NCBI GenBank assembly: GCA_017469945.1
Contig: JAFUFI010000023.1
Coordinates: forward strand, 1-64,000
Direction of reading: 5' to 3'
DNA: 64,000 nucleotides
Source of the DNA: Lachnospiraceae bacterium
Lineage (GTDB): Bacteria; Bacillota; Clostridia; Lachnospirales; Lachnospiraceae
Under the pieces are notes generated by a model. The model had not been told where the DNA came from, ran no database searches, and saw nothing but the letters and a program-made list of their open reading frames with translations. Below are positions 38,564-63,131 of this stretch, one piece after another. Position 1 is the first letter of the stretch. Every line of letters starts with the position of its first letter. Position numbers and translations under genes: made by a program.

Positions 38564-38576
38564 AGGAGAAGAACCA

Positions 38577-40745
38577 ATGGATATGACCAAAAACGAAAGC
38601 CTTAATGAGAGCTTCCGCCAAAAGGCCAAAGAGCTTGTTTCTCAGATGACTTTAGACGAGAAAGTCAGTCAGACAACAAACTGGGCCAAGGCAGTGGACA
38701 GACTCGGGATCAAGGCATACAACTGGTGGAATGAAGCTCTCCACGGCGTAGCAAGAGCCGGAGTAGCTACAGTTTTCCCTCAGGCTATTACCAGTGCGGG
38801 AAGCTTTGATGAAGACCTTCTTGAGAAAATCGCAGACGTAATCTCAACAGAAGGAAGAGCAAAGTATAACGAGCAGCAAAAATATAACGATACTGATATT
38901 TACAAGGGACTTACCTTCTGGTCACCGAATATCAATATCTTCCGCGATCCCAGATGGGGAAGAGGACATGAGACCTTCGGAGAGGACCCTTATCTTACTT
39001 CAAGACTGGGGGCGAGATTTGTCGAAGGTATCCAGGGCCATGACGAAAAGTACATGAAGGCTGCAGCCTGCGCCAAACATTTTGCGGTTCACTCAGGCCC
39101 CGAAGATATAAGACACTCATTCAACGCAGAGGTAAGCGACATCGACCTTTGGGAGACGTATCTTCCCGCTTTTAAGGTCCTTGTTGAAGATGCAAAGGTT
39201 GAAGCCGTGATGGGTGCTTATAACAGAACAAACGGAGAGGCGTGCTGCGCAAGTAAGACACTTCTTCTTGATATCCTTCGCGATATGTGGAACTTTAAGG
39301 GGCATGTAACCAGCGACTGCTGGGCACTTAAGGACTTAAACGAAGGACACGGACTTACAAAGGACCTGGAAGATTCCGCAGCCCTTGCCGCCAACAACGG
39401 ATGCGATGTTAACTGCGGAAACTGTTTCGAACTTTTGAATCTTGCAATTAAAGACGGCAAGGTCTCAGAGGAAAGACTCGACGAGATGGTAGTCAATCTA
39501 TTTACCACACGTATGAAGCTTGGTCTTCTCGGTGAGGTTAATGACAATCCCTTTGACAAGATAGATTATCTTTCGGTTGATACTGATGAAAACAGGAAGT
39601 TCAACCGGGAGGTTGCTCTCCAGAGCATGACTCTTCTTGAAAACAGAAACGGTGCCCTCCCTCTTGATATTACCAAGATTAAGACTCTCGGTGTCATCGG
39701 ACCCAATGCAAATTCAAGACGCGCTCTTGTAGGAAACTACGAGGGAACATCTTCCGAGTACATTACTGTTTTGGAAGGTATCAGAAGATATATCGATAAG
39801 TACGCGGCACATAACGGCGTAGAAAAGCCCAGAGTTCTTTATTCCGAAGGATGTCATCTCTATAAGGACAGAGTTGAAAATCTCGGAATAGAAAATGACC
39901 GTATGAGCGAAGTTAAGACTATCTGCAATTATTCGGATGCTGTTATCGTTGTTGTTGGTCTTGACGCCACCCTCGAAGGAGAAGAGGGCGATACCGGAAA
40001 CCAGTACGGATCCGGAGACAAGAGAGATCTTAAGCTTCCCGGAAATCAGCAGCTTATCGTTGATACCTGCATAGAGAGCGGAAAGCCTGTTATCCTTGTT
40101 CTTATGGCAGGAAGCGCAATGCAGATGCAGGGCGCGGAGGAAAAATGCGCGGCTTACCTTTACGCCGGATATCTCGGAGCTCAGGGAGGAGCGGCTGTTG
40201 CAAAAATCCTCTTCGGCGAAAAGAGCCCCGAAGGAAAGCTCCCCATCACTTTCTATCATGAAATCGACGAGCTTCCCGACTTTACGGATTACGCCATGAA
40301 GGGAAGAACCTACAGATATATGGAGCAGGAAGCTCTTTATCCTTTCGGATACGGACTTTCTTACAATCCCATCGAACTTTCGAATGTAAGGGCAATTCCT
40401 GAAGGAAACGGTATCAAAGTTTGCGGTGATTTTGCAAACCTGGGTAAGCTGGAAGGAGCCGAGACCTTACAGGTATATGTATCTGTTCATAAAGATGGCG
40501 CTCCCAGATGGCAGCTTAAAGGACTTAAGAAGGTAAGACTCCTTCCCGGAGAGCTTAAGCATGTAGAGCTTATTCTACCTAACGAGTCTCTTGGACTTCA
40601 CCTCGGAAAGAATGAAGTTACGGTTGACGGCGATATCACGGTTTACGTCGGAACCCATCAGCCTGACTCAAGAAGTGCCGCCCTTACAGGTACAAAGCCT
40701 GAGGAGTTTAACTTTTCTGTAAGCGCCGAGACGGTTACAAACTAG
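38577..40745 (+). CDS. GH3 beta-xylosidase
   Basis: A 722-residue cytoplasmic GH3 enzyme. The first domain holds FRDPRWGRGHETFGEDPYL and the nucleophile motif VTSDCW with Asp247. The second alpha/beta sandwich (about 370-600) includes GEEGDTGNQYGSGDKRDL. A C-terminal fibronectin-like domain ends near 715. The motif style, with CAKHFAVHSGPE and GAYNRTNGEACCAS, fits the xylosidase/arabinofuranosidase branch of GH3 rather than beta-glucosidases. With xylulokinase next it should release xylose from the non-reducing end and complement Rex, which works from the reducing end. AAGGAG precedes the ATG. Confidence 0.9.
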   Translation: MDMTKNESLNESFRQKAKELVSQMTLDEKVSQTTNWAKAVDRLGIKAYNWWNEALHGVARAGVATVFPQAITSAGSFDEDLLEKIADVISTEGRAKYNEQQKYNDTDIYKGLTFWSPNINIFRDPRWGRGHETFGEDPYLTSRLGARFVEGIQGHDEKYMKAAACAKHFAVHSGPEDIRHSFNAEVSDIDLWETYLPAFKVLVEDAKVEAVMGAYNRTNGEACCASKTLLLDILRDMWNFKGHVTSDCWALKDLNEGHGLTKDLEDSAALAANNGCDVNCGNCFELLNLAIKDGKVSEERLDEMVVNLFTTRMKLGLLGEVNDNPFDKIDYLSVDTDENRKFNREVALQSMTLLENRNGALPLDITKIKTLGVIGPNANSRRALVGNYEGTSSEYITVLEGIRRYIDKYAAHNGVEKPRVLYSEGCHLYKDRVENLGIENDRMSEVKTICNYSDAVIVVVGLDATLEGEEGDTGNQYGSGDKRDLKLPGNQQLIVDTCIESGKPVILVLMAGSAMQMQGAEEKCAAYLYAGYLGAQGGAAVAKILFGEKSPEGKLPITFYHEIDELPDFTDYAMKGRTYRYMEQEALYPFGYGLSYNPIELSNVRAIPEGNGIKVCGDFANLGKLEGAETLQVYVSVHKDGAPRWQLKGLKKVRLLPGELKHVELILPNESLGLHLGKNEVTVDGDITVYVGTHQPDSRSAALTGTKPEEFNFSVSAETVTN

Positions 40746-40807
40746 GCGCCGTCACTAGGATAAAAAAACAATTCGATAAACAATGCAAAATGAAAAGGAG
40801 AAAAACA

Positions 40808-42289
40808 ATGCTTTACGTAGGAATTGACTTAGGCACAAGCGCAGTAAAATTACTTCTCATGGACGAAAAAGGATCCATCAAGAAAATCGTATCAAAGGAA
40901 TATCCTTTATACTTCCCCAATCCCGGCTGGTCAGAGCAAAAACCCGAGGACTGGTATGAGCAGTCAATTGCAGGACTTAAGGAACTCTTAGATGGACAGG
41001 ATAAGTCACAGGTAGCAGGAATCAGCTTCGGAGGACAGATGCACGGACTTGTTATCCTCGATGAGAACGATAACGTAATCCGCCCCGCAATCCTTTGGAA
41101 CGACGGAAGGACCCAGAAGCAGGTAGACTACCTCAATAACGAGATCGGAAAGGCAACTCTTTCAAAGTATACAGCAAACATCGCATTTGCAGGATTTACC
41201 GCTCCCAAGATCCTCTGGGTCAAGGAAAACGAGCCCGAGAACTTTAAGAAGATCAAAAAGATAATGCTTCCCAAGGATTATCTTGCATATAAGCTCACAG
41301 ATACCTTCTGCACCGATTATTCGGATGCTTCGGGAATGCTTCTTTTAGACGTTGAGAACCACAAGTGGTCAAAGGAAATGTGCGATATCTGCGGAATCAC
41401 AGAGGATATGCTTCCCACTATTTACCAGAGCTATGAAAAAGTGGGAGAGCTTAACCACGAGCTCGCTATGGAACTCGGTCTTAAGGACGGTGTTGTTGTG
41501 GCAGCAGGCGCAGGAGACAATGCGGCAGCAGCTGTAGGAACAGGAACCGTTGGTGACGGAGCATGCAACATCTCTCTCGGAACAAGCGGAACACTCTTTA
41601 TCTCTTCAAACAAGTTTGGCGTTGATTCTAACAATGCACTTCACTCATTCGACCATGCAGACGGAAAGTTCCACCTTATGGGATGCATGCTTTCAGCAGC
41701 TTCCTGCAACAAGTGGTGGATGGACGAGATCATCGGAACCAAGGAGTACGGAAAAGAGCAGGAGCCTATTACCGAGGATAAGCTTGGAAATAACCATGTT
41801 TACTTCCTTCCTTACCTTATGGGTGAAAGATCACCTCACAACAATCCCAATGCAAGAGGAACCTTTATCGGACTTACTATGGACAATACCCGCGCCGATA
41901 TGACACAGGCAGTACTTGAAGGCGTTTCATTCGCTCTTCGCGATTCAATGGAAGTAGCAAGAAGCCTCGGAATCGCTCCCGAGAGAACAAAGATCTGCGG
42001 CGGTGGTGCAAAGAGCCCTCTCTGGCAGAAGATGATGGCAAATATCATGAACATGAAGGTTGATATCCTTGAGGTTGAGGAAGGACCTTCCTTAGGCGGC
42101 GCTATGCTTGCAGCCGTTGCCTGCGGAGAGTACGCTTCAGTAGAAGATGCGGCTAAGGCTATCGTTAAGGTTAAAAAGACCGTTGAGCCCGATCCCGAGA
42201 TCGCTGCAAGATATGAAGCTAAGTATCAGGTATTCAAGCAGATTTATCCTGCTTGCAAGAATGTTTACGACGCAATCGCAAATAATTAA
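40808..42289 (+). CDS. xylB: Xylulokinase
   Basis: A 493-residue FGGY-family kinase that phosphorylates D-xylulose to D-xylulose 5-phosphate. The ATP-binding start YVGIDLGTSAVKLLLMD, the sugar-site stretch ISFGGQMHGLV, and a second nucleotide region GGGAKSPLWQKMMANIM are all as in XylB. I chose ATG 40808 because AAGGAG lies seven bases upstream; the ATG at 40790 precedes that signal. It is the third gene of the GH115-GH3 operon and links cytoplasmic xylose release to the pentose phosphate pathway. A xylose isomerase of the usual XylA type is not in the window. Confidence 0.93.
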   Translation: MLYVGIDLGTSAVKLLLMDEKGSIKKIVSKEYPLYFPNPGWSEQKPEDWYEQSIAGLKELLDGQDKSQVAGISFGGQMHGLVILDENDNVIRPAILWNDGRTQKQVDYLNNEIGKATLSKYTANIAFAGFTAPKILWVKENEPENFKKIKKIMLPKDYLAYKLTDTFCTDYSDASGMLLLDVENHKWSKEMCDICGITEDMLPTIYQSYEKVGELNHELAMELGLKDGVVVAAGAGDNAAAAVGTGTVGDGACNISLGTSGTLFISSNKFGVDSNNALHSFDHADGKFHLMGCMLSAASCNKWWMDEIIGTKEYGKEQEPITEDKLGNNHVYFLPYLMGERSPHNNPNARGTFIGLTMDNTRADMTQAVLEGVSFALRDSMEVARSLGIAPERTKICGGGAKSPLWQKMMANIMNMKVDILEVEEGPSLGGAMLAAVACGEYASVEDAAKAIVKVKKTVEPDPEIAARYEAKYQVFKQIYPACKNVYDAIANN

Positions 42290-47802: not shown

Positions 47803-47944
47803 CCGAGTTATGTTTACCGAATAAATAGTTTTAAAGGACGGAAACTGTCAACATAGATCTTGTTTAGAGAATTGTTATTTGAGTTTAAAAGTAAGGCTAA
47901 AAGAATATCATCTGAGCGCTCATGATAACAAATGGAGTTGGATT

Positions 47945-50900
47945 GTGAGTTTTATCAAAAACACTTTTTCATTTTTCCCCAATAGTAATGACAAATTAAA
48001 GAAAAAAAACAGTTTAGGGCTTACAAGAAGAATAACCGCCATCGGTATGTCTATACTTGTAGGTTTTAGCGGTATTGATATTCCTGTCTTGGCAGACGGA
48101 AGCGAAGGCGGTGACAATATCGAAAACCAGGGCGGCGCGGGCCAGGGAGAAACCCAGGGCGGCGCAGAAAAAACAGCCGTTGCTGTTCCTGCTTTGACCG
48201 GATGGAGCGACGGAACCGTTGCAAACTGGGAACTTGTCGAAAACTGTAACTATAAAGTTTTCCTTTACAGAGAAGGAGAGCAGGAAGCTATCGCTTCGGC
48301 TACGGGTGTAACCGTTGGAAGCTATGATTTTTCCGAAAGCTTTTTATCTGCCGGAAAGTATACCTATAAGGTTCAGGCGGTTCCTACGGATGCTATTTCA
48401 GAGACAAGTAAGGAATCTGATCTAAGCTCCGAAGCAGGCTACTCTTATGCTGTAAGCGTTTCGATATCCCGGGGAGAGCATATAACTTCAGTTTCTCCCG
48501 CAAGTACTCTTCTTATAGCCGGAAAGAACGGAAGAAATTCCGTAAGTATAAGTGCAGAGGCAGATACTGAGGGAGGATGGGTATTTGACTCATGGAGCTC
48601 TCTGCCTGAAGGGATGACTCTTTCAAACGGCGCAGAAAGCAGAGAAAATACTCTTTCGATAGATGGCTCATACAGCGGAGAACTCTCCGTATCCTTAACA
48701 GCAACAGGCAAGGAAGATCCTACGCCGGTTATTCCTGTTTGGGAGGTTTATCCTTCTTCGAACGTAAATCTTACCTACAGCGCAGAGGCGCAGGTAATTA
48801 ACGCATGTTTAGATGTTCCCGAAGAAAACGTAACTTATAAGTGGTTTAAAAAGACAGGGGATGAGTTTACTCTTATTACCGGATCATCCGGAAGTCGGTT
48901 GTCTGTAAGAAATGTGGCTGACTCGGGAGTATACAAGGTTTCGGCTGATTATACAATTACTAAGAAAACCGGAACCGTTATAAACGGAACTCTCGAGGGA
49001 GAGCCCTTTAACGTAAATATCGCTAAGGCGCCCCTATCCGTAAAGGCAGATACCGTTAACGTAACATATTTAGAAGATGGCCCCGGATCCTTTACCTTTA
49101 AGTATTACGGGCTTTTGGGAGATGATGGGGATAGCGCCGGAGATGCTGCTCCTTCGGAGAGCGCAAAGATTACTTCTGCCGGAAGCTTTACCTGCAGCTA
49201 CGCTTCGGGAGATAATGCCGGAAACTATTGGATCGTGCAAGACCCTAATGGCGGAGCATTTAGCAGCGACAATTACGAGATAACGGTTGATGAAACCGGG
49301 CTTTTAAAGGTAGCTTCAAAGGCTGCCGGAGAGGGTACTAATGTCAGCGCTGTTTTGGAAAGCACATCATGTAAATATACCGGAAGCGCTGTTACTCCCG
49401 GGGTTATTGTAACCGACGGAGATATTTCACAAACTCTTACAAGCGAAGATTACTCGGTTTCATATTTTAACAATACTTCTATGGGATCGGCTGATGACGC
49501 AAACGGACCCAGAGCGGTAATAAGCTTTAAGAGAAACTATACCGGAAGTATTACTCTTCATTTTGATATCACAAAGGGAGCATATATCCCTGTCGTAACC
49601 ATTGACAATTACACGCCCGGAGAGTGGATATACGGAACTGGCTCAAAGAGTCTTTCGGTAGGAAATTTCCCGGATGATATGACGGACGCCGAAAAGGCAA
49701 ATTACAGAATCTACTACGTAAGCGGACATAAATCTCAGGAGGAGATAAATAAGCTCTCTACAGGTTCTGTCAATCAGCCCGTTGATGCCGGAGATTATAC
49801 CGCATTTGCTATAGTAGGTTCATCATCTAAGTATGAGAGTACACATTCAGCTCCCTGCCACTTTACAATAAGCCCCAAGACCATCACTCTTACCGCCGGA
49901 AGCGGAAGCTGGGTTTACGACGGCAATGCCCATACAAATTCTTCGTTTTCACCTTCAAAGGACGATGCGGACAGTCAGTTTGTTAAAAGCTCCGAGTCCT
50001 TTAAGAGTATTGAGGTTGGGGGCTCTATCACAGACGTTGGAACTGCGGCAAATAAGATTTCCTATACCCTTTCATCCTCCACAAAGGCCTCAAACTATAA
50101 CATAGTCTGTGTTGACGGAGTACTTGAGGTGACTCCAACAGCCCTTCCTTCCCCTGCGGGATGCGAGTGGGATGAAGCAGTTGCGGGAAGAGCCACATGG
50201 GTGGCTGTTGCAAAAAAAGATCTTACGGTTAAATACAAGGTAACTTTGTATGCGTACAATCCCGCCACCGAAAAGGAATCTGTTATTCCCGTAAACGGAC
50301 AGGCTTTCAATATCTGCGAGTCAAACAGCATTGATTTTGCCGAAGCTATCCATACAAGCGCGGATAATTCCGATGATGCAAAGTCCTATTTCTTTACCGT
50401 AGAGACTGTTTCCTTTGGCGGTAAGAGCAAGAATAACTATGCCGATTCTGCAGACTGCGGAACATCCCCTATGCTTTATTCGGCTACGATTACTATTGAT
50501 AGGTCCTATGGCGGTGTGGACCAGTCTGAAAAGATCAAAAGACTGGATCTTGGCACCTTTGGCCAAAGAATAACCCTTATTCAGGGTGAGAGCGTTATCA
50601 TCTACGGTGAGGCCAATGAGGGATATACATTAAACGACTTCGGAAGTAGTGATGAAAGTGCTTCTTTGATCAGTAAAACCAATCTGTCAAAGGAAGGGAC
50701 AGTTTCAAGGGCAAGACTCAGTCTTACTTCCGATATGGAGGAGTCGCTGCCGAATGTAAAATATACTGCGTATATAGTAGATACATTTCCTACCCTTAAA
50801 TCATTTACCGCGGAGAATCTTGAACCGGATCTTTCCGGAGTTAAGTTAAAAGCAACGGTCAGCGATCTTATCGGACTTGATGCATACAGATTTGTCCCTG

Positions 50901-53900
50901 TAACAAAGGACGCTGTAACCGGAACATACTCTGTATCAGACGATACCGTAGAGTGGGTAAGTCTTGGGGGAGCTACAGGCGATAAGACTGTAACCGGGAA
51001 TGTTTACGCGTCCGGCCTTTACGGAATACAGGTAAGGGACGTTGGAGGAAATGTTTTGCCTCCTCACAAGGGAATCTCAGTATACGAGATACAGTTTGAT
51101 CCCGGAGAGGGAAGCGGCTCTATGAGCCCTATTTACAAAGCTGAGAATACAGCTCCCGTTCTCCCCCCGGCTAACAAGTTTACAAAAGATCATTATCAGT
51201 TTAAGTACTGGAGCGGAGCAAAAACAGGTATCAGTGTTGACGGCGCTGCTATGGTAGCCAATGTAAACGATACTCTCGTTGCCCAGTGGACTAACGAAAA
51301 GGTTAACTATACCGTTAATTACTTTTATATGAACGGAAACGGAGAGTATCCCGCCCAGCCTGAGGTCAGTGCTGTTTTTCAGGGAAATCACGGCGATGTT
51401 ATAGACGTTAATAACTCTGACATCCAAAAGCCCAGGGCCAATTACTCTTTAGATACTTCCGATGGACATAACGACTCTGTTTCGCTTGTTCCTGAAAACT
51501 ATCCTCAGGGAATAGTTTTGAATGTATACTACAAGACCGGTCAGTACTCGGTTACATACACCTACAGACTGCCCGGGGAAGATGAAGATACCGTTATAGT
51601 TCAGAACTATTACTACAATCAGGCTATTTCCGAGGCGGATAAGCCTTCAGCGCCCGGATATGACTTTGTCGGATGGGAGTTTGGCGGAAGCGGAGTCGCT
51701 CCCGAGACCATGCCGGCAAATGATCTATACGCAAGCGGAACCTTCAAGGCTAAGGATACGACTTTTAAGGTTGTTTATCACTTAGAAACAATAGGAAACG
51801 GCGAGGCAAAGACCGGGATCTTTGCTGTTAATGACGATCTTACAAGAGTACTTAAAGCTAAAACCGATGACAGTATTACAGCCCTTTTAGACGGAGAGGA
51901 AAATGTAGGAACGGTTGTAGCAGGCACTGTCGAAGGATTTACTTTAAAGACTGTAAGCGTATCTTACGGCGCGGCAGACGGAGAGAGTCTCCCCGAGATC
52001 GCAGATACGAAAGCCGGCACTGTAAAGTACGATCCTTTGGATACCTTATATATCAACTACTACTATGAAAGAAACGTTTACGATCTTTTTGTTGATGTTT
52101 ATAAGGGAAGCAGAGAGTCTGAGACTAATCATATATTCAGACATACCGAAAAACATCAGTATCAGGAGCAATTAGATATAGACAAGTTCTCGGAGCCTGA
52201 TTATTATCTTGGACAGTCCGCCTACGGATCCCCGGCAAAGGACGATTCGGGCAACGATTTTTCTATGCCCCAAGGTTTTGTATTTGCAAGCTATACCGAT
52301 TACTCCACAGGTAATAAACCCTCTAAAATGCCTGCGGGAGATATGAGTATTACCAAAGACGTAATTTCTAACGAAAATGCGGAGTTCAAACTTGAACTTT
52401 ATTTCGAGACGGGAACCATTGGTGAGTATGAATTAAAGTCTACTCTTGTTTACGACTATCCGATAGGCGGAAATATTCATATCGTAGCGGATAAAAGAGA
52501 TGATGAGGGAAATGATTATTTCCTTGCTTACAACGATTTTGTTAAGACAGTAAATAATTATGGTTACTATACCCATACCCTGATTTCTGAGGCTGACGCA
52601 AACGGAAATCTTTCAAAGGAAGAGGGCGTTGTTTTGGACGATGATTCTCTTGTTTTAAAGGTTTACTTTGAAAGAAGAAGCACAACGGCCACCGTCAGCT
52701 ATAAGTACAAGGCTACCGGTGGAGAAGAGACCGAGATAGCAAGCTATCAGGTTACGGGTAAGTGGGGAACTTCATTTGCCTTCGATCCCGATCTTTTATT
52801 TGACAATATTTCGGAGGCTGAAGCAAGGAACAGATTAGCTGCCCTCGGAAGTAATATAACGACGGATGCCGAGTTTACAAATAACGGCCTTTCGACAGAC
52901 TTTAGAAACGCTTCCTACCTTGTTTCCTACACAAGCCATTACAGATACTTTAACGCCAACGGCATCGTTACAAACACCTATCCTTCCTATACCTTTACAA
53001 CTATAGGAAGCGGTATTGAAGTAGATCCCGGGTACCCTGCAAAGAGCGTAAGTAGCGCGGGAATAAGCGATACTGTACTCAGCTACTTCTCTGTAGATGA
53101 TACTTACAACAGAGTTACGGTTTATTACAACCAGATATCCGAGAAGGAAGATTTCTATATTGACCTTAGGATCACCAGAGCACATCTTAAGGATCAAAGC
53201 TTTGACTGGTGGACAAGCCTTAACGGAGATAAGAACATAACAAAGACCTATGATGACAATACTACAGCTGTTCCTATTCTTTACGGATATGACGGAGACG
53301 CAGAAACAGACGGAGAAGAGTACTATCAGGTAAGAGTTATCAATAAATGCGCTGTTGTAACGGCGGCGAAAAAAAGCGAGGCAGCAGATGGCTTAGACGA
53401 TTATCCGGCCGCTAACGCAAAAAGCAGAAGCTATGATTACACCGGAATAGACTTAAATGATGCAAGAAATCTTCACCCGGGATGTAAATATATAGGCGGA
53501 GATTACTTCTTCTACGATCCTTTATTAAATACAGGGGAAAAGACCGGTGCATTCGGAAATGAGCCTGTTGTATTTAAGGTTGATAGCTCAGACAGATTCC
53601 TTCAGGGAGCTTACGTTTCCTACGGAATTGGATCGGGAACCCATGAAAGAGCATTTTGTGATGATTTTCTCAGCAATTATCAGGATGAGCATGATGAAGA
53701 TTCCGGACGCTATGAGCCCGAAAGAACAGCTCTTGCTTACGATAATTTAAGTTATGGCGGAACATACGTAAGCGGAGACCACGGATATCTCAATGTTTAC
53801 TATTACTACCGTGAAAACTGCAGACTTTCCTTCTACTTTAACGGAAGTATCTACAGCGATCAGGTAGCAAACTCATACGTATACGGCTCGGTTGTGCCTA

Positions 53901-56900
53901 AGGAAGATGTTAAATGCGACAGCGTGGAAAAGCGCACCGGATATGATGTAGCCTGGTATACCGATGAGGCTTACTCAGTACCTGTTCCGGATGACGGCCT
54001 TACTATGGACCGCAACAGAACCGTCTACGGAAGGTATGAAAAGAGCACCATCCGCAATATGGAGTATATTTACTACCAGCTTGCGGACCCCATTACGGTC
54101 AGCGGAAATACATACAATTATGTAAACCAAGATAACCTTGATGACATTATTGCTAAGCTTGAAAGCGAAGGAAAAACTCTTTCAAAGGAAGAGTCAGCAG
54201 CGCAGGTTAACGTTGGAACAAGCGATGTTCCTATCTATAAAACAGCCAAAACAATAAAGTATTTCCTCGACGAAGCTCCGGTATTTACAAGTATCGAGAG
54301 GCCGACCCTTACCTATACGGAGATAACCTTAAGCAAGCAAGATGCCGATTACGAGGAGTATTACTTAGACGGTTATGACGGATTTTTCTACAACGAGACC
54401 AACACAGATAACCGCTCATACGGATATGTTAATACCACTCCCATAATCCTGAAGGTTTATTTTGCGAGGGACCAGTATAACGTTGAAGTACTTAACAATG
54501 TATCGGAGACCGATAACCCCGAGCTGAGAAAGTTCTCCATCGGCCAGCATGTAGCATTGGCATCTCCCGTAAAGGGCGGATATACCTTTGACCATTGGAA
54601 CTGGAAAAAGTGGAACGGAAGCAGTTACGAGGACTTTACTCCCGTTATTGAAGCGGGAGAGGAGTATTTCAAGATGCCGGGATTTGATCTTCAGGCATCT
54701 GCGCAGTACGTACCCGCTGCTTTTGACCAGAAAATAGTGCACCTTTTCCAGAAGGAGGACAGCTCCTATTCTTCAGACTTTATCTCTTTGCATGAAACAG
54801 GAGATACTGCCGCTGATGTAACCTTTGGTGATAGGCTTTATCAAAATGCTGACATCTGGGGAACAGCGAATGCACCTGAGGCAGTAAGGATCGTAACTGA
54901 GTCAGGAGAGCTTTACTTCGCAGGCGCTTCCTTAAGTGGAGGACAGATTACGGTAAGTGAGTCTGATCTTGTTGCGGCTGTTACCGAAGAGAGCGTCACA
55001 AGCGAGAATATAGCGGACTTAGACAGCTTTGCACTGCCTGATGATAACTTTGAACTGTTTGGATACAGCTACGGTCTATACAAGGACGGACTTAGCGTTG
55101 TCAGATACGCTAAGGGTGCTTCCGGGCCTATAGCTAAATACGGCATGGAAATAGAGCTTTACTACGCAAGAAGCGCCAACTATACTGTTGAACTTTCGGG
55201 AATTGCAACGGACGGAGCCGAAAGCGGCCTGATTTTATCAGGGGCCGGAATGTACTTTTTCGGTGAGAACGCTACTATCAGCGCCCATCTTAGCGACGGC
55301 TATACCTTTATAGGATGGTTTGATGAGAGTGACATTGAAAACGGACTTATAAAGTCAGGAGCTCATGCTCTTTCAACAAATACTGAAATGACCATACCCG
55401 TAAGGGAAGACATTAAGCTTGTTGCTTTGGTAAAGCCGAATAAAACCATAGCTCCTACCTTAAGATTTTCCGGAAAAGAAAGCTACACATACGGATATGC
55501 CGATTCTGCGGATAATACCATAACCGCTATTGCCGGAACTTCCTTTACCGCACAGGATGAAGAGTGCATAGGACTTTCAGACGAAGAGATCGCGGCGCTT
55601 AATGCACAGGCACAAAAGACCAAGATCACAGGATATCAGTGGTATCTTGTTAAGACAAATGAGGATGGATCGGAGGATATATCTATCCCCGAGGGAACAA
55701 CCTCGTCCGCAACCTACAGATTTACTCCGGGTAAAAATGCCGGTACATATACCTACCGCATTAAGGTGATGTACGAGAGAACCGATAACGGAAGAAGCGG
55801 TTTTATCACAAAGGACTTTGACGTCGTTGTAAACAAGGCTCCGATGAGCGTTACGACAACGTCTTACCACGGAATCTACGATAACAGATTCCACTCGATC
55901 TCCTTAAGCGTTAAAAAGCCCGGTGCAGCATCTGATTATGAGATTTATTATCATCCCGATACTCAGATCACAGCGGAAAACTTTAATACTCTCGAGGGTA
56001 TTACGGGAGAACTTCCTCTTTATAAGGATGTTAAGGTTGATGCACAGGGATATGAAACCTGCCACACAACATATATCTATATTAAGGATAAGACAGGAAA
56101 CTACGAGGATTATATAGGAGAGCAGGACGTTTGGATCGATCCAAAGACTGTAAGCATTAAGCCTACAAACAACATCTTCAGCAAGATGTACGACGGCTCT
56201 GTTAAAGTAAACGGATCCGTAACGGAAGTCGGTTCCGACCTTTACAGACTTTCCCGGGGTGAGTTCTATACTGTTCAGGGATATGTTGACGGAGATGCGG
56301 ATACCAGGGCCTACATACTTGACTGTAATGCAAATTATGACAGCGAGCATGTGAGAACTGCAAAGGCCTTTGTTGTTTCCGATATGAGGATAGTAAACAG
56401 GGAAAGCGGAGATGTTATATACAACTATGTATTCCCCGAAAGCGCGACTCTTTCCTTTACGGGAAATATTACCGCAAGACCGCTTGACATTGAATGGGTA
56501 TTCCCGGAGGAGACGGTAGAGGTTGAAGGAGAGACTGTTCCCTACTATACCTATAACGGAGAGCTTCAGGGGCCCGGAATCAGATTATCCGAGAATCAGA
56601 CCTATCCGATCCCTGCCTTAGACGCGGATATTTCCGAAACCCTTTCCGTATCCGGTAAGCAGGAAAACGCAGGGTTATACAGCGCAGTAGCGGCAGTTTC
56701 GGTTAACGACCAGTCCCATTACGAATCATCGGATTACAGCTTCTCCATTACAAACCAAAAGTATGTTATCGGAAAGCGACCCGTTGAAGTTACGCCGGTT
56801 TCAAAGACCGTTACCTATAACGGACAGGCCCGGACTATTACAGAATATACCGCAAACGGACTCATAGGTTCCCATACAAGTACGGCTCAAAGCGTAAAGT

Positions 56901-59900
56901 CATATGTTGATGCCGGAGTGTATGAAGATATGCTTATGAAAAATCTCGTAGTTTTCGATACCAAGGGAAGGGACATGAAGGACAACTATGAGATCACCTA
57001 CAGCCCCGCAACCCTTACGATTGAAAAGTGCCCTGTAAGAGTAAGTGGCATCACGGTGGGAGACAAGGTATTTGACGGAACTAAGACCGTTAAGTCTGTA
57101 GATGTAAGCGGAGTGGTATTCAGTCCTTTATATACCAATGCTCTTACTAAAAAAGCAGATAAGCTTGCATTGAACGCTGACAAGATAAGTGCAGTATTTA
57201 CGGATGAAGAGGCTGCAGAAGACGTTTTGGCAGTTTTAAGCATCTCGAAGGAAGCACTTATAAATGTTTCAGGTATGGACTGCGCCAAAAACTATGTGAT
57301 CGACGTGGCAGGATCCCAAAACTCTGCCACGGCCGATATTACAAAGAAAAAGCTCTACGTCACCGCAAACGATAAAGAGATGAAATATAAGATAGGTGAC
57401 GAAAACGAAGAAGTACCCGTTTTTGACTGGAGATATGAGGGCTTTGTTGACGGATGGGGAGATGCGGATACTTTCGCGACGGAGCTTGGAAGCATAAGGT
57501 CCTACGTAACCGAAAAGGATACAGAAAACCGCATTACTCCTTCAAAGTCTACTTTGGTAGGAACATACGACATAAAGCTTGAGAATAAGCCGGTTCTTCA
57601 AAACTATGAAGTGGTATTCGTAAAGGGAGTATTTACCGTAAGCCCCAGTAAGATAAATATCACCGTCGGCAATCTCAAGAATCTGATCAATATCTCCGCA
57701 AAGATGTATGACGGAACGACAGATATCTTACCCGGTAAGATAAGTGTCAAAGAAAGAGAAATGCTTATAGCAGATCTTGCGGATCAAAATAAGGGCACGG
57801 ACAAATGCCTTCTTCCTGCGGATGCGGAGTATTTAAGAAAGAACTCTGAGGTCACAATCATCACATTTGACTTTACGGGTTCAAGATACACCGACAGTAA
57901 AAATGTCGGTACCAATAAGCCGGTTCACGTTGACTATGAGCTTGGAGACTGGCTTACAAGCAGATACGAGCTTTCAGATACGGATAAAGAAGCTTTTGCG
58001 GATATATATGAAGCTCCTTTAAGCATCACGCCTGAGGATATGGAAATCTCCTATGGAGATGAAAGACCCAGGCAGGCTTCATTTAGCTACACCGCTACCG
58101 GACTTGTTGCGGGAGAGACTATAGAAAATACTCCCGACTTTATCGGAAGCCTTGTATATGCTACCGAAACCTACAGCGATACCTTAGGTGCATACTCTGA
58201 TGTAAATATATCCGATGGTTATCCTATTACCGTTAGCGGAATTACAAACGGAAACTATGATATTACCTTTAATGAAGGAAAGCTTACGGTTAAAAAGAGT
58301 GCGCTTCAGCTTTCGGCTCCCGTATGGAGCGACAACAGTATCGGATCTGTTACCTGGAATCCGGTAAGCCGGATAGGAGATGTTGAAGTAGCGGGATACG
58401 AACTGAAGCTTTTAAAGGATGGAGCTGAGGTACAAAGCGTAAACGCAGGTCCTTTGGCAAGTTCCTACGATTTTGCGGACAAGATGCATGAAGAGACGGG
58501 ATCATACACAGTTTCCGTAAAGGCTATCGCTTCAACAGAGCAAAATGCCGGAAATAAAAATGTGGATGACTCCGAAATAAAGGTTACTGCATCGTCTAAG
58601 GAAGTAGTTAAAGTAACAGTCTCCTTTGAGGATTCGGTATCGTCAGGCAAGGGTGAAAGCATCCTTATTGACGGAGCCCCATCTGATCCTGTGTATTTGA
58701 CATACGAAGGAGATGACACATTAAGAAGCAGCCTAAATGCCATTGAAGGAGAGAAATTATTCTTTGCAGCACACCTTTCGGTAGATACGGGATATACCGC
58801 AACAACCACAGTTTCTGCCCAGCCGGGTCCTGCAGCATCTCATATGAGCGTTTTGCAGAGTCCTTCTTTAAATGAGCGTGAAGGCAAGTATATCTATGAA
58901 GGAAAGCTTTTGGTATCGGACGAGATCGATGATGCTTCCGAAATCCTTAATGCAAAGATCGGACTTATAAAGACCCCCGCTCGCGTAGACGGAAGCCTTA
59001 CAGCTTCAAAGGACTTTGTTACCTATGGATTTACAAACGAGGAAGCTCCGGCAGCTACGGCTTCTCCTAAACCCGTAGTCGGGGATAATGTTGGACTCGA
59101 CGGATATTCCTATACCTATACATGGTTTATAGAAGATACGGAGAACGATCAGTTTACGGCTTCGGGACTTAACGAAAAGCTTACCGGTTCGGACGAAAGC
59201 GTATATGAACTGCCATCTTTAAATGACTTCGGAAAGAAGCTTGAAAGCGGCGAGGGAAGATACAAGATAAGCTGCCTTATTACTGCCACAAGACTTGATA
59301 ATGCGGAAAGTGCGACCAAGACCCTTGGCCCCGTAGCAATAAGCGTAAGGAAGGCTTCTTATAATCCTCTTGTCAGATTTGATGAAGGCGGAGAGCTTAA
59401 AGAGACAGTAAACAGAAGCTACGGAGAATCAAAGCCGGATCCCGTGGTCACAAACGCGGAAGTCTTTATAGCCGATATCCCCGGAGAGGATATTAAGGAT
59501 TATATAACCTGGCAGTATTCATCCGTCGGAGAGGTGGGCCCCTGGACAGACTACGATCCATATGATCCTTTATCAGACAGTAAGCTTTATACAAAGGCTG
59601 GAACCTACTACGTAAGAGCAAAGATCGCGGAATCTTCCAATTATCTTGCAAGGACAACAGGCGCTGTCATCTACAAGATGGATAAAATACCTCTTACGAT
59701 CACAGGAAAAGACCTTTCAAAGGAATACGACGGTGCGACGCTGACATATGAATCATCTGACGCAGTTCCCGGGGACGGTTTTACAATCGGTGGACTTCTT
59801 ACGGGAGATACGCTTTCTGCCCTTACTTTAAGCGGAAAGATTACGAGTATATCACAGGGAGCCGGAGGAAATACCGCTTCCAACACTCCGGGAAACGCAG

Positions 59901-61888
59901 TTATAGTAAACCCGGACGGAGAAGATGTTACTTCCTGCTATGATATTACATACGTTCCAGGATCCCTTACGATCTCGCAAAGACCTCTTACAATTACTGC
60001 GGGAAGTCTTACGGGAAGTGATGCGCCCATCTACGACGGTCAGTTCCATACTAAGGCTGATGGCTATGGTATCACGGAAGGAACGCTTGCACCCGGTGAC
60101 AGTATAAGTGTAAGTATGACGGAGGCTTCTAAGATAAAGAATGCCGGAAGTGTATCAAACGATATCGGAGCCGTAACAATACGTAATGCGAGCGGCGCAG
60201 ACGTAACACCAAGCTACGAGATCGCAAAGATAAGCGGAAGTTTAGAGGTATTAAAGCGAGATATTACAATAGCGCCGGATAATGCCAAGAGAGCTTACGG
60301 TGAAAAGACCACGGATCATACCTGGAGAGTGATCTTGGGCGAGATACAGATTCCGGGTGAGATAGCTGTTACCGTAAACGACAGCACGGATATTTACGAC
60401 CCTGTCGGAAGTTACGACGGAGCATTAAGCATTACCGCAAGCAGTCCCAATTACAATATTACGACCGAGTCCGCTGACCTTACGATAGTAAGAGGAGAGC
60501 AAAAGATCCTGGCTGAGGATATTGAGTTTATCTACGACGGTAATGAGCATCTCCTTAAAGACTTAGAATCCGGATGGAGCATCAAAAAGCCCGATGGCGA
60601 AGATCTATCGTATATTTGCATTGACGAGTCGGGAAGTGAGATATCCGCTGAGGGTATTAAAGAGCCGGGAATACTTAGAGTTAAGCTTTCCGTACCTGAG
60701 AGCACAAACTTTAATGCTGCTGAAAAGATCATCTCGATCAGGGTAAAGGAAAAGCCCGCTCCTGTGCAGACTATCCCTGCTTCGGATAGCGGAAATGCTA
60801 CTCAGGGCGAGAGCAGTTTTGAGGCAGTAAAGCCTGCGGCAGTTCCTTCTCAAAGTGTTAAGACAGAAGAGATCAAAAAGGATGCCGGAGAAGAATCAAA
60901 GGATGAAACAGAAGGCGGCGACGAGGCAGAGAAGACTTCCGAAAATTCCGCGGCTGATGCCAAAAAACCGGAAGATGCCGAAAACCAAAGCAGCTATGGA
61001 TCATCCCCGGATCTTCCCGAAAACTACATCGGAACAGGGGACGGACGCCTTATCGTTATCGGTACCGATACTGAAGGCTCAGAGGATGAGAAAATCATAG
61101 ACTGTGAAGTCCTGGGAGCTGACATAGTACGTATGCTTGACGAGCTTTTGACAGGCAGCGAGAAAGAAAGGCTTTCAGATAACTCAAGAGTCATCTTCAG
61201 AGTAGAAGTTGATAAGACGGGACCGGATGCCGAAAAGGCGCTTGTGGGCGCCGAAGACTATACAGACGGTCACGGCAAAATAGCCGGAAGCTTTGATTCA
61301 ACATTCTTTGTCACCATTCAGGGTGAGAAAGAGAGAAAGATCGAAGAGAAGTACTCCTCCGTTAGGGTTTCTTTTGAGATTCCGGAAGAGCTTAAAGAGA
61401 GCTTCGGAAAGAAAGGTACTAAAATCCTTTCCGTAACCATTGGTGAAGACGGCATGCCCCTTATCGGATATATTGATTTCGATATACTCGGAGACATGAT
61501 CGTTATGGATATGGACAACTACTCAACCTATGTAGTTGTGGAAGATGAAGGAATCTGCTTTATCCATTGGATAATAGTGCTTTTGCTTATAATAAGTATC
61601 CTTACAGTAATAATCTATTATGTAAGAAAAGACAGAGATAGTAAAGAAAAGGTAAGTAAGGATGAAGAAGATGAAAGACGTTTCTTCAGGCTCCACCTTC
61701 TCATCGTTACAGGATCAAATATTGCGGGATTCATACTTGCTGTATTTTTCAGACACTGCAGATGGGATCTACCCGCCGAACTGCTTAACTTAATCTGTAC
61801 CGTTCTTATGGAGACTATTTTCTATAATGCCGCTAAAAACAGTAACGGTAAAAAGAAAGAAGCTGCAGGAACACAAAAAAACAATTAA
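47945..61888 (+). CDS. Giant multidomain surface protein (MBG/YDG, InlB-B, MucBP-like and Fn3-like repeats)
   Basis: About 4647 residues, uninterrupted. I prefer a GTG start at 47945 because GGAG lies seven bases upstream; a TTG at 47879 is in frame. A Sec signal is near residues 25-50 (ITAIGMSILVGFSGIDIPVL). A Gly/Gln-rich linker is followed by Fn3-like (about 79-169) and Ig-like (262-345) domains, MBG/YDG-type modules (360-730), a second Fn3-like domain, a long InlB-B/MucBP-like section (about 1046-2265), tandem YDG/MBG modules (about 2500-3450), more Ig/Fn3 units (3450-3800) and last YDG/MBG modules to 4260. An acidic Pro/Ser linker (4266-4355) precedes a membrane-proximal domain and three helices at about 4535-4560, 4583-4603 and 4613-4628. 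No LPXTG was found, so it is anchored by the membrane. Probable adhesin to fibre, host or other cells. Confidence 0.85.
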   Translation: MSFIKNTFSFFPNSNDKLKKKNSLGLTRRITAIGMSILVGFSGIDIPVLADGSEGGDNIENQGGAGQGETQGGAEKTAVAVPALTGWSDGTVANWELVENCNYKVFLYREGEQEAIASATGVTVGSYDFSESFLSAGKYTYKVQAVPTDAISETSKESDLSSEAGYSYAVSVSISRGEHITSVSPASTLLIAGKNGRNSVSISAEADTEGGWVFDSWSSLPEGMTLSNGAESRENTLSIDGSYSGELSVSLTATGKEDPTPVIPVWEVYPSSNVNLTYSAEAQVINACLDVPEENVTYKWFKKTGDEFTLITGSSGSRLSVRNVADSGVYKVSADYTITKKTGTVINGTLEGEPFNVNIAKAPLSVKADTVNVTYLEDGPGSFTFKYYGLLGDDGDSAGDAAPSESAKITSAGSFTCSYASGDNAGNYWIVQDPNGGAFSSDNYEITVDETGLLKVASKAAGEGTNVSAVLESTSCKYTGSAVTPGVIVTDGDISQTLTSEDYSVSYFNNTSMGSADDANGPRAVISFKRNYTGSITLHFDITKGAYIPVVTIDNYTPGEWIYGTGSKSLSVGNFPDDMTDAEKANYRIYYVSGHKSQEEINKLSTGSVNQPVDAGDYTAFAIVGSSSKYESTHSAPCHFTISPKTITLTAGSGSWVYDGNAHTNSSFSPSKDDADSQFVKSSESFKSIEVGGSITDVGTAANKISYTLSSSTKASNYNIVCVDGVLEVTPTALPSPAGCEWDEAVAGRATWVAVAKKDLTVKYKVTLYAYNPATEKESVIPVNGQAFNICESNSIDFAEAIHTSADNSDDAKSYFFTVETVSFGGKSKNNYADSADCGTSPMLYSATITIDRSYGGVDQSEKIKRLDLGTFGQRITLIQGESVIIYGEANEGYTLNDFGSSDESASLISKTNLSKEGTVSRARLSLTSDMEESLPNVKYTAYIVDTFPTLKSFTAENLEPDLSGVKLKATVSDLIGLDAYRFVPVTKDAVTGTYSVSDDTVEWVSLGGATGDKTVTGNVYASGLYGIQVRDVGGNVLPPHKGISVYEIQFDPGEGSGSMSPIYKAENTAPVLPPANKFTKDHYQFKYWSGAKTGISVDGAAMVANVNDTLVAQWTNEKVNYTVNYFYMNGNGEYPAQPEVSAVFQGNHGDVIDVNNSDIQKPRANYSLDTSDGHNDSVSLVPENYPQGIVLNVYYKTGQYSVTYTYRLPGEDEDTVIVQNYYYNQAISEADKPSAPGYDFVGWEFGGSGVAPETMPANDLYASGTFKAKDTTFKVVYHLETIGNGEAKTGIFAVNDDLTRVLKAKTDDSITALLDGEENVGTVVAGTVEGFTLKTVSVSYGAADGESLPEIADTKAGTVKYDPLDTLYINYYYERNVYDLFVDVYKGSRESETNHIFRHTEKHQYQEQLDIDKFSEPDYYLGQSAYGSPAKDDSGNDFSMPQGFVFASYTDYSTGNKPSKMPAGDMSITKDVISNENAEFKLELYFETGTIGEYELKSTLVYDYPIGGNIHIVADKRDDEGNDYFLAYNDFVKTVNNYGYYTHTLISEADANGNLSKEEGVVLDDDSLVLKVYFERRSTTATVSYKYKATGGEETEIASYQVTGKWGTSFAFDPDLLFDNISEAEARNRLAALGSNITTDAEFTNNGLSTDFRNASYLVSYTSHYRYFNANGIVTNTYPSYTFTTIGSGIEVDPGYPAKSVSSAGISDTVLSYFSVDDTYNRVTVYYNQISEKEDFYIDLRITRAHLKDQSFDWWTSLNGDKNITKTYDDNTTAVPILYGYDGDAETDGEEYYQVRVINKCAVVTAAKKSEAADGLDDYPAANAKSRSYDYTGIDLNDARNLHPGCKYIGGDYFFYDPLLNTGEKTGAFGNEPVVFKVDSSDRFLQGAYVSYGIGSGTHERAFCDDFLSNYQDEHDEDSGRYEPERTALAYDNLSYGGTYVSGDHGYLNVYYYYRENCRLSFYFNGSIYSDQVANSYVYGSVVPKEDVKCDSVEKRTGYDVAWYTDEAYSVPVPDDGLTMDRNRTVYGRYEKSTIRNMEYIYYQLADPITVSGNTYNYVNQDNLDDIIAKLESEGKTLSKEESAAQVNVGTSDVPIYKTAKTIKYFLDEAPVFTSIERPTLTYTEITLSKQDADYEEYYLDGYDGFFYNETNTDNRSYGYVNTTPIILKVYFARDQYNVEVLNNVSETDNPELRKFSIGQHVALASPVKGGYTFDHWNWKKWNGSSYEDFTPVIEAGEEYFKMPGFDLQASAQYVPAAFDQKIVHLFQKEDSSYSSDFISLHETGDTAADVTFGDRLYQNADIWGTANAPEAVRIVTESGELYFAGASLSGGQITVSESDLVAAVTEESVTSENIADLDSFALPDDNFELFGYSYGLYKDGLSVVRYAKGASGPIAKYGMEIELYYARSANYTVELSGIATDGAESGLILSGAGMYFFGENATISAHLSDGYTFIGWFDESDIENGLIKSGAHALSTNTEMTIPVREDIKLVALVKPNKTIAPTLRFSGKESYTYGYADSADNTITAIAGTSFTAQDEECIGLSDEEIAALNAQAQKTKITGYQWYLVKTNEDGSEDISIPEGTTSSATYRFTPGKNAGTYTYRIKVMYERTDNGRSGFITKDFDVVVNKAPMSVTTTSYHGIYDNRFHSISLSVKKPGAASDYEIYYHPDTQITAENFNTLEGITGELPLYKDVKVDAQGYETCHTTYIYIKDKTGNYEDYIGEQDVWIDPKTVSIKPTNNIFSKMYDGSVKVNGSVTEVGSDLYRLSRGEFYTVQGYVDGDADTRAYILDCNANYDSEHVRTAKAFVVSDMRIVNRESGDVIYNYVFPESATLSFTGNITARPLDIEWVFPEETVEVEGETVPYYTYNGELQGPGIRLSENQTYPIPALDADISETLSVSGKQENAGLYSAVAAVSVNDQSHYESSDYSFSITNQKYVIGKRPVEVTPVSKTVTYNGQARTITEYTANGLIGSHTSTAQSVKSYVDAGVYEDMLMKNLVVFDTKGRDMKDNYEITYSPATLTIEKCPVRVSGITVGDKVFDGTKTVKSVDVSGVVFSPLYTNALTKKADKLALNADKISAVFTDEEAAEDVLAVLSISKEALINVSGMDCAKNYVIDVAGSQNSATADITKKKLYVTANDKEMKYKIGDENEEVPVFDWRYEGFVDGWGDADTFATELGSIRSYVTEKDTENRITPSKSTLVGTYDIKLENKPVLQNYEVVFVKGVFTVSPSKINITVGNLKNLINISAKMYDGTTDILPGKISVKEREMLIADLADQNKGTDKCLLPADAEYLRKNSEVTIITFDFTGSRYTDSKNVGTNKPVHVDYELGDWLTSRYELSDTDKEAFADIYEAPLSITPEDMEISYGDERPRQASFSYTATGLVAGETIENTPDFIGSLVYATETYSDTLGAYSDVNISDGYPITVSGITNGNYDITFNEGKLTVKKSALQLSAPVWSDNSIGSVTWNPVSRIGDVEVAGYELKLLKDGAEVQSVNAGPLASSYDFADKMHEETGSYTVSVKAIASTEQNAGNKNVDDSEIKVTASSKEVVKVTVSFEDSVSSGKGESILIDGAPSDPVYLTYEGDDTLRSSLNAIEGEKLFFAAHLSVDTGYTATTTVSAQPGPAASHMSVLQSPSLNEREGKYIYEGKLLVSDEIDDASEILNAKIGLIKTPARVDGSLTASKDFVTYGFTNEEAPAATASPKPVVGDNVGLDGYSYTYTWFIEDTENDQFTASGLNEKLTGSDESVYELPSLNDFGKKLESGEGRYKISCLITATRLDNAESATKTLGPVAISVRKASYNPLVRFDEGGELKETVNRSYGESKPDPVVTNAEVFIADIPGEDIKDYITWQYSSVGEVGPWTDYDPYDPLSDSKLYTKAGTYYVRAKIAESSNYLARTTGAVIYKMDKIPLTITGKDLSKEYDGATLTYESSDAVPGDGFTIGGLLTGDTLSALTLSGKITSISQGAGGNTASNTPGNAVIVNPDGEDVTSCYDITYVPGSLTISQRPLTITAGSLTGSDAPIYDGQFHTKADGYGITEGTLAPGDSISVSMTEASKIKNAGSVSNDIGAVTIRNASGADVTPSYEIAKISGSLEVLKRDITIAPDNAKRAYGEKTTDHTWRVILGEIQIPGEIAVTVNDSTDIYDPVGSYDGALSITASSPNYNITTESADLTIVRGEQKILAEDIEFIYDGNEHLLKDLESGWSIKKPDGEDLSYICIDESGSEISAEGIKEPGILRVKLSVPESTNFNAAEKIISIRVKEKPAPVQTIPASDSGNATQGESSFEAVKPAAVPSQSVKTEEIKKDAGEESKDETEGGDEAEKTSENSAADAKKPEDAENQSSYGSSPDLPENYIGTGDGRLIVIGTDTEGSEDEKIIDCEVLGADIVRMLDELLTGSEKERLSDNSRVIFRVEVDKTGPDAEKALVGAEDYTDGHGKIAGSFDSTFFVTIQGEKERKIEEKYSSVRVSFEIPEELKESFGKKGTKILSVTIGEDGMPLIGYIDFDILGDMIVMDMDNYSTYVVVEDEGICFIHWIIVLLLIISILTVIIYYVRKDRDSKEKVSKDEEDERRFFRLHLLIVTGSNIAGFILAVFFRHCRWDLPAELLNLICTVLMETIFYNAAKNSNGKKKEAAGTQKNN

Positions 61889-61915: not shown

Positions 61916-61947
61916 AAAAAGGAACCGGATAAAACCGGTTCCTTTTT
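61916..61947. terminator. Bidirectional terminator between the giant gene and the - strand genes
   Basis: AAAAAGGAACCGG (61916-61928) pairs with CCGGTTCCTTTTT (61935-61947) around a six-base loop. A-tract and T-tract flank it on opposite sides, so it works for both the + strand giant gene and the - strand gene ending at 61982. Confidence 0.88.
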
Positions 61948-61981: not shown

Positions 61982-62353
61982 TTAGCTGTTTCCTTTAAGC
62001 TGCAACAGCTTTTCGATAAGAGTATCGATCTCGTTTTGAGAAAGAACTGCCTGATTATTGGCGATATCTCCTTCGAGAGCATCGATGGTCTCGTATTCCT
62101 TGATGGAATTTAAGGCATCGATAAGAGAGTCAATCTCAGGCTGGGAGAGAGCCACATTTACATTGGGCTTTAAGAGAGGAACATCCTTGACGGTATTGAG
62201 CGTACTTATGAGCTTGTCAATCTCACCCTGTGTAAGAATGACCTGGTTATGCAAAAGATCGGCTGAAATAGCATTATCGTCTGCGTAGTTCCTAAGAGTA
62301 TTAAGAGCATCAACTATTGAGTCAATTTCTGACTGAGATAACAATTTACCCAT
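61982..62353 (-). CDS. Small protein of four FliM-N-terminus-like LSQxEID motifs
   Basis: A 123-residue acidic protein without signal peptide. It contains LSQSEIDSIVDAL (5-17), LTQGEIDKLISTL (40-52), LSQPEIDSLIDAL (69-81) and LSQNEIDTLIEKL (104-116). Spacings are 35, 29 and 35 residues, so the protein is a two-fold repeat of a 64-residue unit with two motifs each. The motif matches the N-terminal peptide of the flagellar switch protein FliM (LSQxEIDALL), which in E. coli binds phosphorylated CheY. No FliM middle or SpoA domain is present and no flagellar gene is near. It may bind several CheY-like receivers at once. That function is inferred; the repeat structure is seen. It has its own promoter and starts at ATG behind AAGAAGGA. 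Confidence 0.75.
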   Translation of the reverse strand: MGKLLSQSEIDSIVDALNTLRNYADDNAISADLLHNQVILTQGEIDKLISTLNTVKDVPLLKPNVNVALSQPEIDSLIDALNSIKEYETIDALEGDIANNQAVLSQNEIDTLIEKLLQLKGNS

Positions 62354-62384: not shown

Positions 62385-62414
62385 ATTGTATCATATCACA
62401 AAAACTGCAAACAA
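62385..62414 (-). promoter_or_regulatory. Promoter of the four-motif protein gene
   Basis: On the - strand, TTGTTT (62409-62414), 18 bases, and TACAAT (62385-62390) preceded by TGA form a plausible extended -10 promoter. Transcription would start about 25 bases before the ATG. It implies the gene is expressed apart from the YesL-like gene upstream. Confidence 0.5.
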
Positions 62415-62423
62415 GATAAAAGA

Positions 62424-63131
62424 TTACTTATTTTCGTCCCCTGCTATGGCAGAATCGCTGAAAATATGTTCATCCCCCGCGGAGAGGTCCTCCTCGGGAT
62501 GAGCTTCGAGATAGATATCCTCTGCCTTTTTGAAATGCTTATTGTAGAGCTTAGCCGCAAGAAATGCGGGAGCCGCAAAACAAAAGCAAAGCTCTAAGGG
62601 GAAGAGCCAAAGACCGACATTTCCGATAAAGAAAAGGGAAAAGGGAGCTGCTTCTGCGATGAGGATCAGTAGAGTAGCAGGGAAATGTCTGAATGCAAAA
62701 ACAAAAGCGGTCTTTATTGTTTTAGGAATAGGATTAACAAATTTAGCCTGTATGGGATATACAAAAACTCCCACAAACATAATAAGAAAAGTAAATACCA
62801 GTACGCCACCTAAGATATAGGGGCTAAGTCCCGTAGGGTTAGCATAGATAAGGAAGTAATCAAGTCCGAAGAAGCCTGCGATCAAAAGGAAGATCAGCCA
62901 GATGATTGTGGACTGCTTGAAATTATCCTTAAAGGAGTGGAAAAACTGCTTGGCGATCCCGGCTTCCTCATCTCTTACAAGCTTAAGCATACAGTAGTGC
63001 ATCGCTGTAAAGGCGGCGCCTGCGGTGATGACCGGAACGCAGAGGAGTAAGGTGAGCAGATTGACGATGACTATATCCGCCATCTTTCCAAGGGCTCTCA
63101 TAAGGGGGCTGTCTAACTGAAAAATTTTCAC
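62424..63131 (-). CDS. YesL/DUF624-family membrane protein
   Basis: A 235-residue protein with about five helices (near 18-45, 75-95, 105-130, 145-165 and 170-195) and an acidic C-terminal tail. The opening LDSPLMRALGKMADIVIVNL, then LLCVPVITAGAAFTAMHY, is typical of YesL/DUF624 proteins. These commonly sit beside sugar importers in Firmicutes and have an unknown role. The start is GTG, preceded by CGGAG. The gene runs divergently from the copper ATPase and has a strong promoter of its own. Confidence 0.83.
   Translation of the reverse strand: MKIFQLDSPLMRALGKMADIVIVNLLTLLLCVPVITAGAAFTAMHYCMLKLVRDEEAGIAKQFFHSFKDNFKQSTIIWLIFLLIAGFFGLDYFLIYANPTGLSPYILGGVLVFTFLIMFVGVFVYPIQAKFVNPIPKTIKTAFVFAFRHFPATLLILIAEAAPFSLFFIGNVGLWLFPLELCFCFAAPAFLAAKLYNKHFKKAEDIYLEAHPEEDLSAGDEHIFSDSAIAGDENK

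Follow-up and report, generated by a model that had tools for sequence, protein, structure and literature searches.

Known limits on CheY~P are set by phosphatases (CheZ, CheC, CheX and FliY), by phosphate-sink receivers and by motor adaptation. The CheY-binding motif of FliM is LSQxEIDxLL, which is internal to FliM in Caulobacter; changing its Ile-Asp pair there abolished docking of the CheY type, and Cle proteins, which are receivers other than CheY, dock on the same FliM motif (PMC5677366). The FliM N-terminal helix is bound by the alpha4-beta5-alpha5 face of CheY (PMC11528121), and CheZ uses that face as well (PMC3774744).

We analyzed a gene for a protein with four such motifs (the array protein), which lies in a 64,000-nucleotide stretch of a Lachnospiraceae genome (the window). 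The array protein shares with the FliM N-terminal segment (TIGR01397) the motif itself, together with the subsequent Ala-Leu of Lachnospiraceae FliM, and a similar helix length; unlike FliM, it has four copies in one soluble protein, lacks the middle and SpoA domains, and is not encoded in the fli operon. The core LSQxEI[D/N]xLL is also common to the array motifs and the FliY N-terminus, whose EIDAL segment docks CheY~P or FlhG; however, FliY of the carriers' family has EIN and LLxGM, whereas the array motifs are of the FliM type and are accompanied by no CheC-like or SpoA domain. The C-terminal CheY-binding peptide of CheZ has an SQxxxDxLLDxL core like motif 3, and the E. coli peptide SQDQVDDLLDSLGF (PMC12270135) resembles SQPEIDSLIDALNS of that motif, but the CheZ peptide is a single copy on a phosphatase, whereas the array protein has no phosphatase domain. 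Cle proteins and CheY phosphate sinks modulate the active receiver that reaches FliM, as is proposed here for the array protein; those proteins act as receivers, binding the motif or accepting phosphate, whereas the motif itself is carried by the array protein.

Our searches of the open-access literature turned up no protein in which CheY-docking motifs are repeated. Searches of Pfam, PHROGs and PDB sequences returned nothing beyond short matches that were sub-threshold or biased, which we rejected; a YopM match among the PDB sequences (E=3e-4) was dismissed because it consisted of repeated weak segments, none of them significant alone. The initial annotation was aware of no described family of this layout, and none emerged from Pfam, NCBIfam, PHROGs, the PDB sequences or that literature; the array family appears to be undescribed in the libraries and open-access literature searched.

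Four FliM-type motifs in a duplicated unit

The array gene (P0001) spans positions 61982..62353, stop codon included; it starts with ATG, and its product has 123 residues. It lies on the minus strand and is read from 62353 to 61982, a strand that the initial annotation had not given. Translation of the reading frame placed the motif starts at residues 5, 40, 69 and 104, exactly as had been claimed. We scored each motif with separately built profiles of FliM and FliY N-termini. Motif 1 (LSQSEIDSIV, residues 5-14, 62312..62341) scored 34 with the FliM profile and 9 with the FliY profile; the respective values were 20 and 11.5 for motif 2 (LTQGEIDKLI, residues 40-49, 62207..62236), 35 and 16 for motif 3 (LSQPEIDSLI, residues 69-78, 62120..62149), and 25 and 6.5 for motif 4 (LSQNEIDTLI, residues 104-113, 62015..62044), all on the minus strand. 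Across 16 sequences, 64/64 motifs scored higher with the FliM profile than with the FliY profile.

Residues 5-56 aligned without gaps to residues 69-120 at a 64-residue offset, with 25/52 positions identical (∼48%). This alignment bears out the two copies of a 64-residue unit, with two motifs in each, that had been read from the sequence: unit 1 (residues 1-64, 62162..62353, minus strand) holds motifs 1 and 2, and unit 2 (residues 65-123, 61985..62161, minus strand) holds motifs 3 and 4. The array protein thus consists of a two-motif unit duplicated in tandem, and the four-motif array is confirmed.

The motifs exceed chance expectation by several measures. A degenerate codon pattern for L-[S/T]-Q-x-E-I-D matched five sites exactly in the 2.62-Mb genome, four in the array gene and one at the fliM N-terminus, while a reversed control pattern matched 0 sites in the whole genome. 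In 200,000 composition-preserving shuffles of the protein we never observed more than one motif match, compared with the four present. We also slid a 19-column profile of Lachnospiraceae FliM N-termini over 558,143 six-frame 19-mers from all loci gathered; matches above 12 bits fell exclusively in FliM, FliY, the array family, a two-motif protein at locus L063 and a fusion protein (L107/L124).

The identity of the motifs as FliM-type was upheld by three independent tests, namely the NCBIfam FliM model, the FliM profile scan, and the comparison of FliM and FliY profiles. The top NCBIfam match of the array protein was TIGR01397 (FliM), at model positions 3-28, in three stretches (E=6e-5), the best of which covered residues 69-94 with motif 3. 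On the Lachnospiraceae FliM profile, motifs 1 and 3 (34-35) scored higher than E. coli FliM itself (28). The likeness is confined to this segment: the array protein reached 22 bits against a full-length TIGR01397 cut-off of 219.6, and Pfam gave no match to the FliM middle domain (PF02154) or the C-terminal SpoA domain, in agreement with the earlier statement that nothing else of FliM is present. The protein likewise had no Pfam match to the CheC-like domain of FliY and none of significance to the catalytic domains of CheZ, CheC or CheX; NCBIfam matched the FliM N-terminus only.

Conservation, carriers and genomic setting

Fifteen further Lachnospiraceae genomes encode orthologues, which are 46-100% identical to the array protein and retain all four motif positions. 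Loss of these positions among orthologues had been named in the initial annotation as a result that would refute its interpretation, and the family passed this check. Both motifs retain their Gln and Asp in 30/30 aligned repeat units, and their Leu is nearly invariant. Conservation extends beyond the motif to unit positions Leu18, Tyr24 and Gln38, and several non-motif positions are invariant. The closest informative pair (L103/L104) gave a dN of 0.022 and a dS of 0.336 (dN/dS ∼0.07), indicating purifying selection. Together, the 15 orthologues, the invariant motif residues and this ratio indicate that the open reading frame is a real gene.

The family is narrowly and patchily distributed. Scanning the genomes of 84,980 species, we obtained 12 loci, all in Lachnospiraceae metagenome-assembled genomes (MAGs) and, where the source was named, from the rumen. 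Within the genus, 11/31 genomes are carriers, one of them through a fusion to a GH3 glycosidase; strong matches occurred in 2/397 Lachnospiraceae genomes, suggesting that most flagellated relatives manage without the array protein. A class-wide profile search of 291 genomes recovered the source genome's own array protein alone, and we found no relatives in viral contigs or in plasmids. Weak genome matches (E ∼1e-3) in long open reading frames (L003-L006, L062, L064 and L065) were dropped since they contain no motif. Distances between array proteins track those between the FliM proteins (Mantel r=0.515; 4/5000 permutations as high), consistent with partly vertical inheritance of the gene, plus losses or transfers.

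The carriers are flagellated, with CheY. A complete fla/che operon lies on a different contig of the source genome; we named its genes by reading their sequences and, for FliM, also by Pfam. The order is fliM, fliY, cheY directly after, then fliO-fliR, flhB, flhA, flhF and flhG, and the operon also contains a PilZ-like gene, cheB, cheA, cheW, cheC and a sigD-like sigma factor. The FliM N-terminus reads MGEVLSQNEIDNLLAALSSG (TTG start taken as Met) and that of FliY reads MEGMLSQDEINALLSGM. FliM is present in 11/11 same-genus carriers, and fliM-fliY pairs are visible in 11/12 carriers from the other genome collection. About half of the family encodes FliM (151/299), as do 28/31 genomes of the genus; this high background makes the co-occurrence of array and flagella weak evidence. 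One MAG (G748; L137, L162) has two different fliM genes, representing a second flagellar set or mixed strains.

The array gene stands alone outside the flagellar operons: the real fliM is at G000:C15:48317-48889, whereas the array gene is on contig C2. It has its own promoter-like element and terminator-like stem. The putative housekeeping promoter, TTGTTT-18-TACAAT (62385..62414, minus strand), was identified by eye and with a regular expression and is absent from the list of a stricter scan; similar elements are found in L009, L010, L011 and L105. In the 300 bases upstream of all family members we found no SigD-type promoter. Downstream, a stem-loop formed by GGAACCGG and CCGGTTCC with flanking T/A runs (61921..61942, no strand assigned) is a putative bidirectional terminator, read from the sequence and absent from the list of a mechanical scan; terminator-like stems lie downstream of most array orthologues. 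Upstream, a gene for a DUF624 (YesL-type) membrane protein (62424..63131, minus strand; Pfam PF04854, E=7e-20) adjoins the array gene in close relatives only, and a search for a conserved operon partner found the other neighbors to be unconserved. A 4669-aa open reading frame for a repetitive surface-type protein (window positions 47879-61888, plus strand) ends right before the stem that it has in common with the array gene; a related frame in L134 is far shorter, at 1580 aa.

Proposed docking on CheY and competing explanations

Our favored reading, to which we give a probability of about one half on the basis of the comparisons above, is that the array protein is a soluble, tetravalent docking protein that would bind CheY~P (or another receiver) and compete with FliM. 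Each motif is predicted to start an amphipathic helix like the one with which the FliM N-terminus catches phosphorylated CheY. The protein, expressed from its own housekeeping-type promoter, might present as many as four CheY~P sites on each chain at a distance from the motor and might compete with FliM (and FliY). Docking would presumably depend on phosphorylation, and swimming would presumably be affected. As a buffer or sink, the protein would lower the switching bias; alternatively, as a scaffold, it would gather CheY~P or another receiver. The initial annotation had likewise suggested buffering or clustering of phosphorylated CheY or recruitment of other receivers, a reading that our results partly support. 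In favor of docking we count the near-confinement of the motif to FliM, FliY and this family, the FliM-type scores, the likeness to the CheZ peptide, the complete fla/che operon, the FliM of the carriers, the helix that AlphaFold2 places at each motif of the full chain, and the invariant Gln and Asp, which exceed what a generic helix cap needs. Several observations count against docking: CheY is a monomeric ligand, so that four sites would provide capacity and not avidity; no SigD-type promoter was found in the family; its distribution is narrow and patchy; co-occurrence with flagella is weak evidence; conservation past the motif (Leu18, Tyr24 and Gln38) is as expected of a folded domain; and a purely motility-related role does not explain the GH3 fusion in one relative.

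The motif can also be read in structural terms. L-S/T-x-x-E-I corresponds to the textbook start of a helix, a hydrophobic staple with a capping box, and this general pattern, with the conservation beyond the motif, makes a structural role possible. The array protein might then be a small folded helical-repeat protein, its likeness to FliM a matter of helix N-capping within a bundle and its function unrelated to CheY. The AlphaFold2 model of the repeat unit, built from a shallow alignment of 30 rows, has three helices at moderate local confidence (pLDDT 75, pTM 0.35), several positions outside the motif are invariant, and family members lie beside carbohydrate-metabolism genes in some genomes, with one fused to GH3. 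However, the pTM values do not support a fixed tertiary fold, although both models are compatible with a folded bundle as well as with its absence: the full-chain model, from a shallow alignment of 15 rows, has a helix at each motif and low-confidence linkers (pLDDT 54, pTM 0.22), and a Foldseek search of the PDB with the repeat-unit model returned no fold match. Furthermore, a capping box requires neither the Gln nor the Asp that are invariant here, and genome-wide the motif is nearly confined to FliM, FliY and the array family. We consider a purely structural role unlikely.

If the motifs do dock a partner, another candidate is FlhG, a MinD-type ATPase that controls the number of flagella; by titrating FlhG or bridging its dimers, the array could tune flagellar number or C-ring assembly. 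Residues 1-36 of FliY are necessary and sufficient for FlhG binding in Geobacillus/Bacillus, and the ATP-bound FlhG dimer has two sites (PMC12327844), while in other species, polar flagellates, the FliM N-terminus contacts FlhG (PMC12826062). The source genome encodes flhF and flhG, and a dimeric partner suits multivalency better than monomeric CheY. Nevertheless, the partner of FlhG in B. subtilis is FliY rather than FliM (PMC12826062), and the array motifs carry the FliM-type signature in every case, a mild argument for CheY over FlhG; docking of FlhG seems to us quite unlikely. We regard it as very improbable that the array is an adaptor serving receivers that are not the chemotaxis CheY, or a tether that brings enzymes to a receiver or the motor. 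In Caulobacter, Cle receivers do use this FliM motif (PMC5677366), the GH3 glycosidase carries the module as an N-terminal extension, and two motifs head a 190-aa protein in another genus, but the GH3 fusion is a single case and possibly a local rearrangement, and we saw no consistent linkage of any receiver gene to the array gene.

Overall, our sequence analyses suggest that a four-tag protein of flagellated rumen bacteria may soak up or gather the CheY signal away from the motor. If docking on CheY is true, the array protein would exert a different kind of control from the known limits, as a soluble decoy that competes for CheY~P with four copies of the motor's own docking tag. It would also give researchers a naturally multivalent CheY~P reagent, and a case in which to test the spread of short linear motifs from one bacterial protein into new ones. 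More tentatively, and at somewhat less than even odds, the family could represent a new class of chemotaxis regulator, a dedicated multivalent flagellar-switch decoy built only of duplicated FliM-type segments. It would buffer or cluster CheY~P at a distance from the motor, and its module, also joined to GH3 in a relative, might link receiver docking to polysaccharide use.

Related modules and motif-like tails

In a same-genus genome (G728; L124:6022-8499, minus strand), a two-motif module forms the first ∼110 residues of the 825-aa GH3 glycosidase and is homologous to the array protein of the window (E=9e-8). This xylan-utilization locus is syntenic with window positions 35630-42289 (GH115-GH3-xylulokinase), where the GH3 has no such extension, so a local rearrangement may have produced the fusion. 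Either such a chance event or portability of the module could account for it. In genome G245, from another genus, the 190-aa protein (L063:1489-2061, plus strand) has two N-terminal FliM-type motifs followed by a domain without a Pfam match.

We also observed motif-like tails in other proteins. Two small Ala/Pro-rich proteins (L127:3747-4037, minus strand, and L122 near 2771, plus strand) have the C-terminal end LSQAEIDALIASM(T/S), and the gene of the former adjoins two HflK/HflC-like genes. A 250-aa protein of an apparent conjugative element (L120:3655-4407, minus strand) ends in MLSQDEINWFLNSLDDE, a FliM/FliY-like tail.
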